10,590 bases of DNA. It comes from a bacterium (GTDB lineage: Bacteria > Coprothermobacterota > Coprothermobacteria > Coprothermobacterales > JAADFF01). Position numbers and translations under genes: made by a program. The notes under the pieces were generated by a model that saw only the letters and a program-made list of their open reading frames with translations, had not been told where the DNA came from and ran no database searches. Below are positions 1 through 4,858 of this stretch, piece by piece. Position 1 is the stretch's first letter. Every line of letters begins with the position of its first letter. The stretch lies in NCBI GenBank assembly GCA_027063755.1, contig JAMORD010000056.1:1-10590 (forward strand), written 5' to 3'.

Positions 1-1407
1 TGGATTCAACAGCTTTTCTCGGTACTCTTTAATCTTTTCCTCTCTGGCCTTCTCTGGATCTGGAGCGTTTTGTATCTCTTTGCGGAAGATAATATTAGCC
101 GCACCAGTGGCCTCCATAACGGCAATCTGAGCTGCTGGATATGCCATTACAACATCAGATGCAAGATGTTTTGATGCCATGGCAAGATATGCTCCACCAA
201 AGGATTTCCTCAGTATCAATGTAACCTTTGGCACAGTGGCCTCAGAATATGCATACAGAAGTTTGGCACCATGTCTGATAATACCTCCATACTCCTGGTT
301 TGTTCCAGGCATGTATCCAGGTGTATCAACCAGTGTCACAATAGGAATATTGAAGGCATCAAGGGTACGAATAAAGCGTGCAGCCTTATCAGATGCATTG
401 ATATCAAGTACACCGGCAAAGTAAGAAGGTTGGTTAGCAATAATACCTATTACCTGTCCACCCAATCTTGCAAAGCCTATAACAATATTGGGGGCAAATC
501 CCGGCATAATCTCAAAGAAATGCCCATCATCAACAAAGCGCGTGATAAGTTGTCTTACATCAAATGGCATCTTGGCCTCAGCAGGCACTATATCAAATAC
601 ATCATCTATTGTTCTATTAATAGGATCGGAAGTCTCATATATAGGTGGTGTTTCCTTGGCATTTTGAGGAAGATAAGACAGTAATTCTTTAACCAGGTCT
701 AAGGTATGTTCCTCGCTATCACCTACAAGGTGGGCATTACCAGAAATTGTCGTATGCACCTGCGGACCACCAAGAGATTCCTTTGTCACATCTTCACCGG
801 TAACAGCCTTAATAACATTAGGACCTGTAATAAACATATAAGAAGATGGACTCATGACAACAAAGTCCATCAGTGCCGGAGAATACACAGCCCCACCGGC
901 ACATGGTCCCATAATAACGGCAATCTGTGGAATATATCCAGAAGCCTTAACATTTCTATAAAAAATATCTCCATATCCACGAAGAGAGTCTACCCCCTCC
1001 TGAATGCGGGCACCACCAGAGTCGTTAATCATAATCACAGGCACGCCATAGAGCATGGCCTTGTCAAGAAGCTCAGCTATTTTTATGCCGTGCATTTCAC
1101 CAACAGAACCACCAAGTACAGTAAAATCTTGTGAAGCTATACCAACAAGTCTACCACCGATGGTGGCAAATCCTGTAACAACACCGTCGGCAGGGGCTTC
1201 AACTTTATCAAGGCCGAACTCTGTACTCCTATGCTTAACAAAAGCACCAAATTCCACAAAACTACCAGGATCAACAAGATAATCTATTCTTTCCCTGGCA
1301 GTCATCTTACCGGCAGCGTGCTGCTTTTCTATACGCTTAGGTCCGCCACCTTGCCTGATTTTCTCCAGTTTTTCCTGAAACTCTTCCATAAACTTATCCC
1401 ACACCAT
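1..1407 (-). CDS. mmdA: Methylmalonyl-CoA decarboxylase alpha subunit / propionyl-CoA carboxyltransferase, 3'-truncated by window edge
   Basis: Carboxyltransferase subunit of the biotin-dependent acyl-CoA carboxylase superfamily; it moves carboxyl groups between methylmalonyl-CoA/propionyl-CoA and biotin. The open frame runs without a stop from ATG at 1407 to base 1, giving 469 residues; relatives are about 510-520, so roughly 45 C-terminal residues are missing. Visible landmarks are ARERIDYLVDPGSF (37-50), SGGARIQEGV (130-139), the oxyanion-hole region GPCAGGAVYSPAL (167-179), DTPGYMPGT (361-369) and the second oxyanion loop KSFGGAYLAM (401-410). From memory of the family, Leu408 and the following GAANIIFRKEI (435-445) resemble MmdA and the transcarboxylase 12S subunit, whereas propionyl-CoA carboxylase beta chains usually have Asp at this position. 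A decarboxylase or transcarboxylase is therefore favoured, but carboxylase is not excluded because the partner subunits are not visible. The Shine-Dalgarno AAAGGAGTG overlaps the end of mce, three bases upstream, which suggests translational coupling. Confidence 0.93.
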   Translation of the reverse strand, partial: MVWDKFMEEFQEKLEKIRQGGGPKRIEKQHAAGKMTARERIDYLVDPGSFVEFGAFVKHRSTEFGLDKVEAPADGVVTGFATIGGRLVGIASQDFTVLGGSVGEMHGIKIAELLDKAMLYGVPVIMINDSGGARIQEGVDSLRGYGDIFYRNVKASGYIPQIAVIMGPCAGGAVYSPALMDFVVMSPSSYMFITGPNVIKAVTGEDVTKESLGGPQVHTTISGNAHLVGDSEEHTLDLVKELLSYLPQNAKETPPIYETSDPINRTIDDVFDIVPAEAKMPFDVRQLITRFVDDGHFFEIMPGFAPNIVIGFARLGGQVIGIIANQPSYFAGVLDINASDKAARFIRTLDAFNIPIVTLVDTPGYMPGTNQEYGGIIRHGAKLLYAYSEATVPKVTLILRKSFGGAYLAMASKHLASDVVMAYPAAQIAVMEATGAANIIFRKEIQNAPDPEKAREEKIKEYREKLLNP

Positions 1408-1410
1408 CAA

Positions 1411-1812
1411 TCACTCCTTTGCATCCTGAGTAAGTTCAGTAAGAACACCAACAACAGATTTAGGATGCACAAATGCAATAAGTTTACCCTCTGCTCCTAC
1501 TCTGGGATTCTCATCAATAAGTCTAAAACCTTTTTCCTTGAGCTCACTCAGCTTTGCTCCAAGGTCATCTACTCTATATGCAACATGGTGAAGACCCTCG
1601 CCTCTTTTTTCTATAAATTTAGCTACAGGACTGTCATCAGATGTCGGCTCAAGGAGTTCTATACGCACATCACCAAGATAGTAAATAGCCGTTTTAACTT
1701 TCTGTTCCTCTACCTCTTCAAAGTGGTCTGGCTCCTTACCAAACAGGGCAGAATAAACCTTTGTTGCATCATCTAAGTTTCTCACCGCAATGGCTATGTG
1801 GTCTACTTTCAT
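1411..1812 (-). CDS. mce: Methylmalonyl-CoA epimerase
   Basis: Interconverts (R)- and (S)-methylmalonyl-CoA, joining the mutase to the carboxyltransferase step. The 133-residue protein is a small two-module VOC (glyoxalase-fold) enzyme of usual length. The expected metal ligands can be picked out: His5 in DHIAIAV, Glu52 in RIELLEP (Gln or Glu in relatives), His76 in GLHHVAYRV and Glu126 in GVLTEL. The acidic stretch 32-36 (EEVEE) may hold a catalytic base, but I cannot assign it without an alignment. The ATG overlaps the meaB stop as ATGA (1809-1812), and a G-rich Shine-Dalgarno (GGGGGTG) lies six bases upstream, inside meaB. The position between meaB and mmdA is typical for this pathway. The VOC fold alone is not specific, so context contributes much of the certainty. 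Confidence 0.95.
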   Translation of the reverse strand: MKVDHIAIAVRNLDDATKVYSALFGKEPDHFEEVEEQKVKTAIYYLGDVRIELLEPTSDDSPVAKFIEKRGEGLHHVAYRVDDLGAKLSELKEKGFRLIDENPRVGAEGKLIAFVHPKSVVGVLTELTQDAKE

Positions 1813-2756
1813 ACTTCACACCCCCACTCTCTCAATGTTGATATTGCTATTTCATAAGGAGAGGTTTTGGGTTTCACTTCTCCCCTTTCTACAAATCCAT
1901 GTATCTTCTTACCCACGATATATCTCATCCAGTTTCCAACTTGAAATTTCCAGCGAGTTGTTCTTCTCTCTACAAGCTGTCCTGTATTCTTTAATTCACA
2001 CCATTTATTGTCAATATACGCAATTAATTCTCTGATACCCTGTTTTTTAGATGCAGATACTTTGACAATATCAGGGTGATTTTCCACCATACGAGTATAT
2101 GAGTTAAGAATACCAACAGTCTTTGATGCAGTAGGTAAATCAGCCTTATTCATTACAATAAGATCTACAAGCTCTATAACACCGCTCTTAAGAAACTGTA
2201 CATCATCACCAAGCCCTGGAGCAATAACAAGTGCCGTAAGATCACACATGTGGACAATATCTATTTCATCTTGACCTATACCCAGAGTTTCAACAATGAT
2301 ATAATCAAATGAAGCTGCCTCAAGCACAGATACAGCATCAAAGATAAAGGGATTAATTCCTCCTACCATACCCCTACTGGAAAAGCTTCTAAAAAAGAGA
2401 TTGGAATTGGGAAACAGATGCTGAAGTCTAATGCGATCGCCAAGCAAAGCACCACCTGTTTTAGGACTAGATGGGTCAACAGCAATAACGCCGACACGTT
2501 TATCCTCTTTTAGCAATGTCTCTGCGAGGACCGATATTAAAGTGCTTTTACCCACACCGCCAGCACCGGTAATGCCAATAATTTTTGCTTTCTCTTTTTT
2601 TTCGGCATTGTAAGCATATATACGAGAAAGCAGGGAGGAGCTTGCCTCCTCCCTGTATATCATAGACAAGGCTCTTGCCAATCCAACTTCATCGCCCTTT
2701 ATAAGACGACGAAAAACCTCTTCTTCTGTTAGAACAAGTCTTTTCTTTTTACTCAC
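1809..2756 (-). CDS. meaB: Methylmalonyl-CoA mutase-associated GTPase MeaB (ArgK family)
   Basis: G3E-family P-loop GTPase that binds methylmalonyl-CoA mutase, gates delivery of adenosylcobalamin and protects the enzyme from inactivation. Residue numbers are from the GTG at 2756 (315 aa): Walker A GAGGVGKST (64-72), the Mg/switch region VDPSSPKTGGALLGDRIR (93-110), Walker B and switch II ETLGIGQDE (156-164), PGLGDDVQ (180-187) and the guanine motif NKAD (203-206). Length is normal for the family. I chose GTG 2756 because AGGTGAG lies seven bases upstream; an in-frame GTG at 2768 would add four residues but has a weaker ribosome site. The start overlaps the mcmA2 stop by eight bases and the stop overlaps mce by four, so it is translationally coupled on both sides. 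Direct adjacency to both mutase subunits supports MeaB over other ArgK-like proteins. The early coding part carries a strong inverted repeat at 2631-2655. Confidence 0.95.
   Translation of the reverse strand: MSKKKRLVLTEEEVFRRLIKGDEVGLARALSMIYREEASSSLLSRIYAYNAEKKEKAKIIGITGAGGVGKSTLISVLAETLLKEDKRVGVIAVDPSSPKTGGALLGDRIRLQHLFPNSNLFFRSFSSRGMVGGINPFIFDAVSVLEAASFDYIIVETLGIGQDEIDIVHMCDLTALVIAPGLGDDVQFLKSGVIELVDLIVMNKADLPTASKTVGILNSYTRMVENHPDIVKVSASKKQGIRELIAYIDNKWCELKNTGQLVERRTTRWKFQVGNWMRYIVGKKIHGFVERGEVKPKTSPYEIAISTLREWGCEV
2631..2655 (-). repeat. Perfect 10-bp inverted repeat (possible mRNA hairpin) inside meaB
   Basis: CAGGGAGGAG (2631-2640) and CTCCTCCCTG (2646-2655) are exact reverse complements separated by five bases, so on either strand the RNA could fold into a 10-bp, GC-rich stem with a five-base loop. 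In the meaB mRNA the 5' arm contains a GGGAGGAGG-like, Shine-Dalgarno-like run that would be hidden by pairing. It encodes the Arg-Glu-Glu-Ala-Ser-Ser-Ser-Leu-Leu stretch near residues 35-43 of the GTPase. No U-tract follows on the coding strand, so it is not a normal intrinsic terminator. Function is unknown and chance occurrence is possible. Confidence 0.5.
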
Positions 2757-3162
2757 CTTGTTTCTCACCTAGCACATGCTCTTTTATCCAGTTAATAATG
2801 TGAATAGGACCTGTACCGGGACCAAAGACTTCATCAATACCCTTTTCTTTCAGAAGCTCTACATCTTCAAACGGAATAACACCTGTTGCCAATACATATA
2901 TATCGTCTCTTCCCCTCTTCTTCAACTCCTCTACCACAAGAGGAAATACCTCAAGGTGTGCACCTGTAAGATTGTTCAGCACAACAACATCTACATCCTC
3001 CTGAACAGCTGTCTGTGCCACCTGAGCTGGTGTCTGGCGAATTCCTGTATATATTACTTCAAATCCTGCATCCCTCAGGGCGCGGGCCATAACCTTTGCT
3101 GCCCTGTCGTGCCCATCAAGACCAGGCTTACCAACAAGTACTCTTACCACTCTATCTGCCAT
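2749..3162 (-). CDS. mcmA2: Methylmalonyl-CoA mutase, cobalamin-binding (small/C-terminal) subunit
   Basis: Stand-alone B12-binding Rossmann domain that carries adenosylcobalamin for the mutase barrel encoded just upstream. The protein is 137 residues from ATG 3162, the usual size for split mutases of bacteria and archaea. It begins RVLVGKPGLDGHDRAAKV; His18 of DGH would be the lower axial cobalt ligand. The fingerprint D-x-H-x-x-G, 41 residues, S-x-L, 26-28 residues, GG is present with exact spacing but altered letters: Ala21 for Gly, Asn63-Asn64-Leu65 for Ser-x-Leu, and Thr93-Gly94 for Gly-Gly. RQTPAQVAQTAVQEDVDVVV and GTGPIHIINWI match the family elsewhere. ATG 3162 is preferred over GTG 3171 because a G-rich Shine-Dalgarno lies five bases before it and would be too close to the GTG. 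It is 13 bases after mcmA1 and overlaps meaB. Another B12-dependent acyl-CoA mutase small subunit is possible, but the large subunit points to methylmalonyl-CoA. Confidence 0.95.
   Translation of the reverse strand: MADRVVRVLVGKPGLDGHDRAAKVMARALRDAGFEVIYTGIRQTPAQVAQTAVQEDVDVVVLNNLTGAHLEVFPLVVEELKKRGRDDIYVLATGVIPFEDVELLKEKGIDEVFGPGTGPIHIINWIKEHVLGEKQGE
2764..2770 (-). promoter_or_regulatory. Ribosome binding site deciding the meaB start
   Basis: On the minus strand AGGTGAG sits seven bases before GTG 2756, which matches the 3' part of a full AGGAGGTGA. It favours GTG 2756 over the upstream in-frame GTG at 2768. The site is inside the last codons of mcmA2, consistent with coupled translation. 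Confidence 0.5.
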
Positions 3163-3167
3163 GTTTA

Positions 3168-3177
3168 CCACCCCCTT
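3168..3177 (-). promoter_or_regulatory. Ribosome binding site deciding the mcmA2 start
   Basis: AAGGGGGTGG on the minus strand overlaps the TAA of mcmA1 and ends five bases before ATG 3162. It matches AAGGAGGTG except for one A-to-G change. Spacing supports ATG 3162 rather than the GTG at 3171, which lies inside the motif. Confidence 0.55.
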
Positions 3178-4858
3178 AGAAGATTACCGGAGGTCTATAT
3201 TCACCAAAGACCTCTCTAAGCACATCTGTAATTTCACCAAGTGTTGCACGGGCTCTTACTGCTTCAATGATATATGGCATAAGGTTGGTATTCTCATCTT
3301 CTGCAGCCTTTCTCAAATCATCAAGCAGTTTTCTCACCTTCTGATTATCTCTCTTTTCACGAAGCTCTTTTAATTTCTTAACCTGCTTCTCTCTAACTGT
3401 TGGGTCTGCCCTGTGGAGGTGGAACTTTGTCAAATCTTCGTTGGGATCAACAAACTTATTAACACCAACAACAACCTTTTCACCATCTGCAACAGCCTTG
3501 TAATACTGATATGCGGCATCGGTAATCTCCTGCTGAATATAACCTTCTTCAATAGCAGGAACCATACCGCCCATCTTTTCAATCTTGTCAAGATATTCCC
3601 AAACTTTCTTTTCTATCTCATCGGTGAGTTTTTCAACATAGTAGCTTCCACCAATACCATCAATGACATCGGCCACACCAGATTCATAGGCAATAATCTG
3701 CTGGGTACGAAGGGCAACGGTAACAGACTCCTCTGTTGGAAGGGACAAAGCTTCATCATAAGAGTTTGTATGCAAAGACTGTGTACCACCAATAACAGCA
3801 GCAAGTGCCTGAATGGCAACACGCACAATGTTGTTAAGTGGCTGCTGAGCTGTTAATGTACTTCCAGCTGTCTGTGTGTGGAATCTTAACATCATACTCT
3901 TTGGATTCTGGGCACCAAACTTCTCCTTCATAATCTTGGCCCAAACCCTTCTTGCGGCACGGAACTTGGCTATCTCTTCAAAGAAATTGTTGTGAGATGC
4001 AAAGAAGAAAGACAGTCTTGCGGCAAACTTATCAACATCCATACCCTTTTCAATAACAGTCTTCACATACTCAATAGCATCACCAAGTGTAAATGCTATC
4101 TCCTGAACGGCTGTAGAACCTGACTCTCTAATGTGATAACCAGAAATAGAAATCGGATTCCACTTGGGCACCTCTTCAGCACAGAACATAATAGTGTCGG
4201 CAATAAGTCTCATAGAAGGCCGAGGTGGGAAGATATATGTTCCCCTTGCCACATACTCTTTAAGAATATCGTTTTGAATAGTTCCCCTAAGCACTTTGCG
4301 GTCTATACCTTTTTCTTCGGCAACAACAATATACATGGCAAGGAGTATAGCAGCAGGTGCATTAATTGTCATAGATGTAGATACCTTATCAAGGGGAATA
4401 CCATCAAATAATACATGCATATCTTCAACAGAATCTATGGCAACACCAACTTTACCCACTTCACCTACGGCAAGATCATGATCTGAATCATATCCCAGCT
4501 GGGTAGGAAGGTCAAATGCCACAGAAAGTCCTGTCTGGCCTTGCTCAAGTAGATACTTAAAACGCTGGTTGGACTCTTCAGCGGTTCCAAATCCAGCATA
4601 CTGTCTCATAGTCCAGAAACGACCTCTGTACATTGTAGGATACACACCACGGGTAAATGGATATCTACCGGGAAAACCTAATCTCTCAAGGTAACTCCAA
4701 TCCTCATCAAGATCGGCAGGTGTGTAAAGAGGGTTAATCTCAATGCCAGAATCCAACATAAAAGGATGCTTTCTCTCAGGCACTTTGGCTACAAACTTGG
4801 CATAGTCTGTAGACAGCCAGTCTTCTTTGACCTGTAAAATTTTTTTTCTGTCTTCCAT
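3176..4858 (-). CDS. mcmA1: Methylmalonyl-CoA mutase, catalytic (large/N-terminal) subunit
   Basis: TIM-barrel subunit of adenosylcobalamin-dependent methylmalonyl-CoA mutase; with the small subunit it isomerises (R)-methylmalonyl-CoA and succinyl-CoA by a radical mechanism. The 560-residue length fits the split form lacking a fused B12 domain. Substrate-site residues known from the Propionibacterium enzyme are recognisable: the tyrosine of PTMYRGR (Tyr77), the arginine of [13 protein letters not shown] (Arg205) and the Tyr-His pair of [12 protein letters not shown] (Tyr241, His242). Isobutyryl-CoA and 2-hydroxyisobutyryl-CoA mutases differ at the Tyr/Arg pair, so methylmalonyl-CoA is the favoured substrate. 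Other family blocks are [17 protein letters not shown] (110-126), [10 protein letters not shown] (193-202), [18 protein letters not shown] and [15 protein letters not shown]. The C-terminal 50-60 residues are a charged helical region ending in EVFGEYRPP, as in split mutases. ATG 4858 has AGAGGTGAG just upstream. It follows ftsH by 17 bases and is presumably cotranscribed with it. Confidence 0.97.

Follow-up and report, generated by a model that had tools for sequence, protein, structure and literature searches.

The window, the whole stretch of 10,590 nucleotides that was analysed, comes from an organism of the order Coprothermobacterales belonging to a family other than that of Coprothermobacter, and the lineage has a cultured thermophilic representative. 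The gene coding for the B12-binding (small) subunit of a split methylmalonyl-CoA mutase is located on the reverse strand (2749..3171, (-)) and its product matched PF02310 with 79 bits and TIGR00640 with 160 bits against a curated cut-off of 57.45, which places it in the latter family. The neighbouring genes, all on the same (-) strand, code for the catalytic (TIM-barrel) subunit of the mutase (3176..4858, TIGR00641 862 bits), a divergent MeaB GTPase, the mutase chaperone (1809..2768, TIGR00750 244 bits), a methylmalonyl-CoA epimerase (1411..1812, TIGR03081 161 bits) and the alpha subunit of a methylmalonyl-CoA decarboxylase/carboxyltransferase (MmdA, 1..1407). The latter is partial, cut by the window edge, and was assigned from its position in the operon; the complete orthologue in genome G001 scored 798 bits with the mmdA model, under the cut-off of 999. 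The operon with MeaB, the epimerase and the decarboxylase is kept across the order. At another locus (L117, 6216-8382), it runs on with genes for the beta subunit of a sodium-pump decarboxylase and for a biotin carrier, so that the decarboxylation of methylmalonyl-CoA may be coupled to the export of sodium. An Rfam scan of the window gave neither a cobalamin riboswitch nor any other match.

The open reading frame of the small subunit codes for 140 residues from a GTG at 3171 or for 137 residues from an ATG at 3162. The ATG is preceded just upstream by the ribosome-binding-like stretch GGGGGTGG and is the likely start. Residues are numbered here from the GTG at 3171, three higher than in the original prediction. 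The AlphaFold model of the small subunit (pLDDT of 92.7) exhibited a Rossmann-like B12 domain fold, with a Z score of 22.5 to 4r3u_C (1.5 Å over 131 residues), 22.3 to 2req_A and about 22 also to 6oxd_A and 3bic_A. Z scores near 22 to solved B12 domains show that the modelled protein has an unchanged fold. The best structural match, 4r3u_C, is HcmB, the small subunit of 2-hydroxyisobutyryl-CoA mutase, yet HcmB has the canonical cobalamin fingerprint. The human and Propionibacterium methylmalonyl-CoA mutases (2xij and 1req) have the same fold, with the B12 domain fused whereas it is split in the protein of the window.

The adjacent TIGR00641 gene carries the methylmalonyl specificity residues Tyr87 and Arg205, which align with the Tyr and Arg of the human mutase, whereas the large subunit of 2-hydroxyisobutyryl-CoA mutase has Ile and Gln at these positions. 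Between the two families of the order the catalytic subunit is 69-71% identical, and among the columns that are invariant elsewhere a single one has an order-specific change (Q453Y). Judged by its sequence, the catalytic subunit is thus orthodox, as had been proposed from the DNA.

We then compared the fingerprint of the small subunit with the classic DxHxxG/SxL/GG motif. It reads D19-G-H21-D-R-A24, L65-N66-N67-L68 and A95-T96-G97, with canonical spacing. The cobalt-ligating His and its Asp, in Asp19-Gly-His21 (3109..3117, (-)), are retained and are invariant in 212/212 homologs, in line with the original prediction that both residues are kept. Ala24 (codon GCA, 3100..3102, (-)) replaces the invariant Gly of DxHxxG, Asn66 (codon AAC, 2974..2976, (-)) replaces the invariant Ser of SxL, and Thr96 (codon ACA, 2884..2886, (-)) replaces the first Gly of GG, the second Gly (G97) being kept. 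A fourth altered position, absent from the original prediction, is Val64 (2980..2982, (-)), with Val or Ile in 6/6 sequences of the order and Gly or Ala in 201/206 sequences outside it; as it lies two residues before the Ser position of SxL, the two should point to the same side of the strand. The substitutions at 24, 64, 66 and 96 all enlarge the side chain, and the volume added, calculated from standard residue volumes, is about 190 cubic angstroms in the protein of the window and 245 in that of Coprothermobacter proteolyticus.

Homologs were collected from a GTDB contig scan, from the relatives of the window over 386 genomes and from 80 further fetched stretches. The alignment contained 212 homologs, 206 from Bacteria and Archaea outside the order and six from the order, these last from two families including C. 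proteolyticus. Outside the order G24, S66 and G96 were each found in 206/206 sequences and the three substitutions in 0/206. Within the order, 6/6 sequences exhibited Ala or Gln at position 24, Asn at 66 and Thr at 96; position 24 is Ala in the window protein and Gln in the other family (f2), which includes C. proteolyticus. Outside the order, 27 columns reached a conservation of at least 98%; exactly three of them were altered in 6/6 members of the order, and all three are fingerprint positions (hypergeometric p of 0.007, a rough value since columns are not independent); with the strictest conservation cut, leaving 14 columns, p was 0.055. A codon-spaced DNA pattern that requires Asn where SxL has its Ser was searched in the 386 genomes, about 196 of which lie outside the order and carry the mutase gene. 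It matched the mutase locus only in the six genomes of the order, with two further matches at unrelated places. The claim of three true, aligned and lineage-specific substitutions thus stands, and the 206 homologs and 386 genomes gave no sign that the same residues are common in ordinary mutases. The six sequences of the order form one clade with a support of 100/93, and its two families otherwise share no more than about 56-61% identity. As the finished genome of C. proteolyticus has the same residues, an artefact of sequencing or alignment was ruled out. In the open-access literature that we searched, no description of this fingerprint variant was found.

Between the window and its congener, dN was 0.024 and dS 0.94 for the small subunit (dN/dS of about 0.026), and dN was 0.014 and dS 0.75 for the catalytic subunit. 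Both subunits are under strong purifying selection. The dN/dS ratio together with the shared substitutions ruled out a pseudogene or a decaying gene. The best-conserved residues of the pocket have here been exchanged jointly by evolution, and the enzyme that carries them is under selection.

The altered positions were then compared with known systems. Ser830, which is the Ser of SxL, and Gly860 are in contact with the lower base in human methionine synthase (PMC13376404); by our own reading of the spacing, Gly860 is one of the two Gly of GG. These contacts assign the altered positions to the tail pocket of a solved relative, and they agree with the earlier proposal that serine and glycine of these motifs line that pocket. 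The split subunits of TIGR00640 (for example that of Aeropyrum pernix, 2yxb) have the same length, fold, D-x-H ligand motif and catalytic partner, with an identity to the window protein of up to 65%, but they keep G/S/G where the order has A/Q, N and T, together with Val/Ile for Gly/Ala. The human mutase, which has the same catalytic specificity Tyr and Arg as the window enzyme, is canonical at G630, S672 and G702. MtrA and the B12 radical-SAM domains also bind a corrinoid without the full canonical motif (PMC4915002, PMC8828468); these proteins, however, are unrelated in sequence or bind at another site, whereas the protein of the window is truly homologous and has kept the His site.

The genomes of the order were searched for genes of corrinoid synthesis and use. 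CobT (PF02277) and CobS (PF02654) gave no match in any genome of the order, the finished C. proteolyticus genome included, and PduO adenosyltransferase and CbiC gave no match in the order genomes either; the control genomes were positive for all of them. The genome of the window (G000) is 88% complete. The CobA/BtuR adenosyltransferase is present in the order genomes G000-G004, as is the class II, adenosylcobamide-dependent ribonucleotide reductase NrdJ in the genomes of the order, and these genomes contain one or two cobalamin riboswitches, one of them upstream of a BtuF-like importer gene. The presence of CobA, NrdJ and the riboswitch with its importer, with CobS and CobT absent, indicates that the order imports and adenosylates corrinoids. 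Because CobT and CobS are absent, the known route for adding or swapping a lower base is not available to the order, and bza or bluB genes would be unusable by that route. As the corrinoids are imported, the genome points to no particular lower ligand. The suggestion of a phenolic or purinyl lower ligand in particular therefore lost its footing with the lack of any CobT or CobS match in the order genomes. An enzyme matched to an unusual lower ligand of the cell's own making was likewise rejected, PF02277 and PF02654 being absent from every genome of the order.

Two side observations concern these genes. The second of the cobalamin riboswitches immediately precedes sucC-sucD (G000:C90:5237-5409, L138, and G001:C72:4425-4596, L141), which code for succinate-CoA ligase, an enzyme sharing succinyl-CoA with the mutase; in the Coprothermobacter family one riboswitch was found, before btuF, and that of sucC-sucD was not seen. 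The NrdJ of the window genome (G000:C13:4466-7624, (-)) exhibited two model-matching parts about 380 codons apart within one open frame of 1277 residues, and the gap is probably an intein or another insertion.

Taken together, the data are best explained by an active adenosylcobamide mutase with a filled and remodelled tail pocket, which probably works in the His-on state with an altered recognition of the tail. The small subunit would most likely hold the adenosylated corrinoid via the usual His, base-off/His-on, and pass it to the orthodox catalytic subunit. The tail pocket has been remodelled by small-to-larger swaps (G to A/Q, G to V/I, S to N and G to T), whose fixation dates back to the ancestor of the order and which have been retained since. 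Recognition of the tail was probably altered, having become either looser or directed at other cobamides, in organisms that are unable to make or remodel cobamides and rely on the supply of their neighbours. For the question which residues of base-off enzymes choose among cobamides, the mutase of this order offers a natural test case.

A neutral lineage variant, binding ordinary cobalamin with ordinary selectivity, in which the substitutions alter the packing and compensate one another within a small thermophilic lineage, is possible but on balance unlikely. The unchanged domain fold and the conservation of every other conserved column are consistent with it, and a different packing of residues does not necessarily alter selectivity. 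Mutase orthologs differ in their affinity for lower ligands, and the pocket residues, largely conserved between orthologs of different selectivity, did not explain why (PMC6759758), which means that selectivity is not necessarily tied to the residues; engineered mutants in the same study lost solubility and binding (PMC6759758). However, three positions invariant in all 206 outside homologs, from two domains of life, were changed together, and the changes stayed fixed in two families as divergent as those of the order. Moreover, the Gly of DxHxxG is the site of a disease variant of the human mutase, G630E (PMC7792044), and the human enzyme is thus sensitive at this position, where C. proteolyticus naturally has Gln.

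That the tail pocket is closed, the mutase working with corrinoids that have no tail or keep it out of the pocket (adenosylcobinamide, or any cobamide whatever its lower ligand), appears quite improbable, and slightly more doubtful still is the form of this idea in which the corrinoid, its tail absent (adenosylcobinamide) or outside, is held by the His and the corrin ring alone. The bulk added by the four changes is comparable to that of a lower base, and an imported cobinamide could not be completed with CobS and CobT absent. Adenosylcobinamide is, however, inactive in the canonical mutase (PMC6759758), the same genomes carry NrdJ, a class of ribonucleotide reductase that binds complete cobamides base-on (PMC6257451), and both the riboswitch family and the importer belong to the ordinary cobalamin type. 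A closed pocket, if true, would break the rule that methylmalonyl-CoA mutase needs a bound lower base. Finally, a small subunit that binds no corrinoid, in a mutase that is inactive or uses another radical source, would account for the loss of three fingerprint residues, and the importer, CobA and the riboswitch could serve NrdJ alone, which could then account for the B12-use genes, but this is highly improbable in view of the invariant Asp and His, the strong purifying selection on both subunits and an operon with MeaB, epimerase and decarboxylase that is conserved in the order and has no visible alternative radical activator.

The MeaB protein of the operon also showed deviations from its homologs. 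Its Walker A motif is unusual, GAGGVGKS, with the order-specific change P70G, and a further order-specific change, A192F, places Phe192 near the putative switch III region; MeaB has possibly co-evolved with the small subunit of the mutase.
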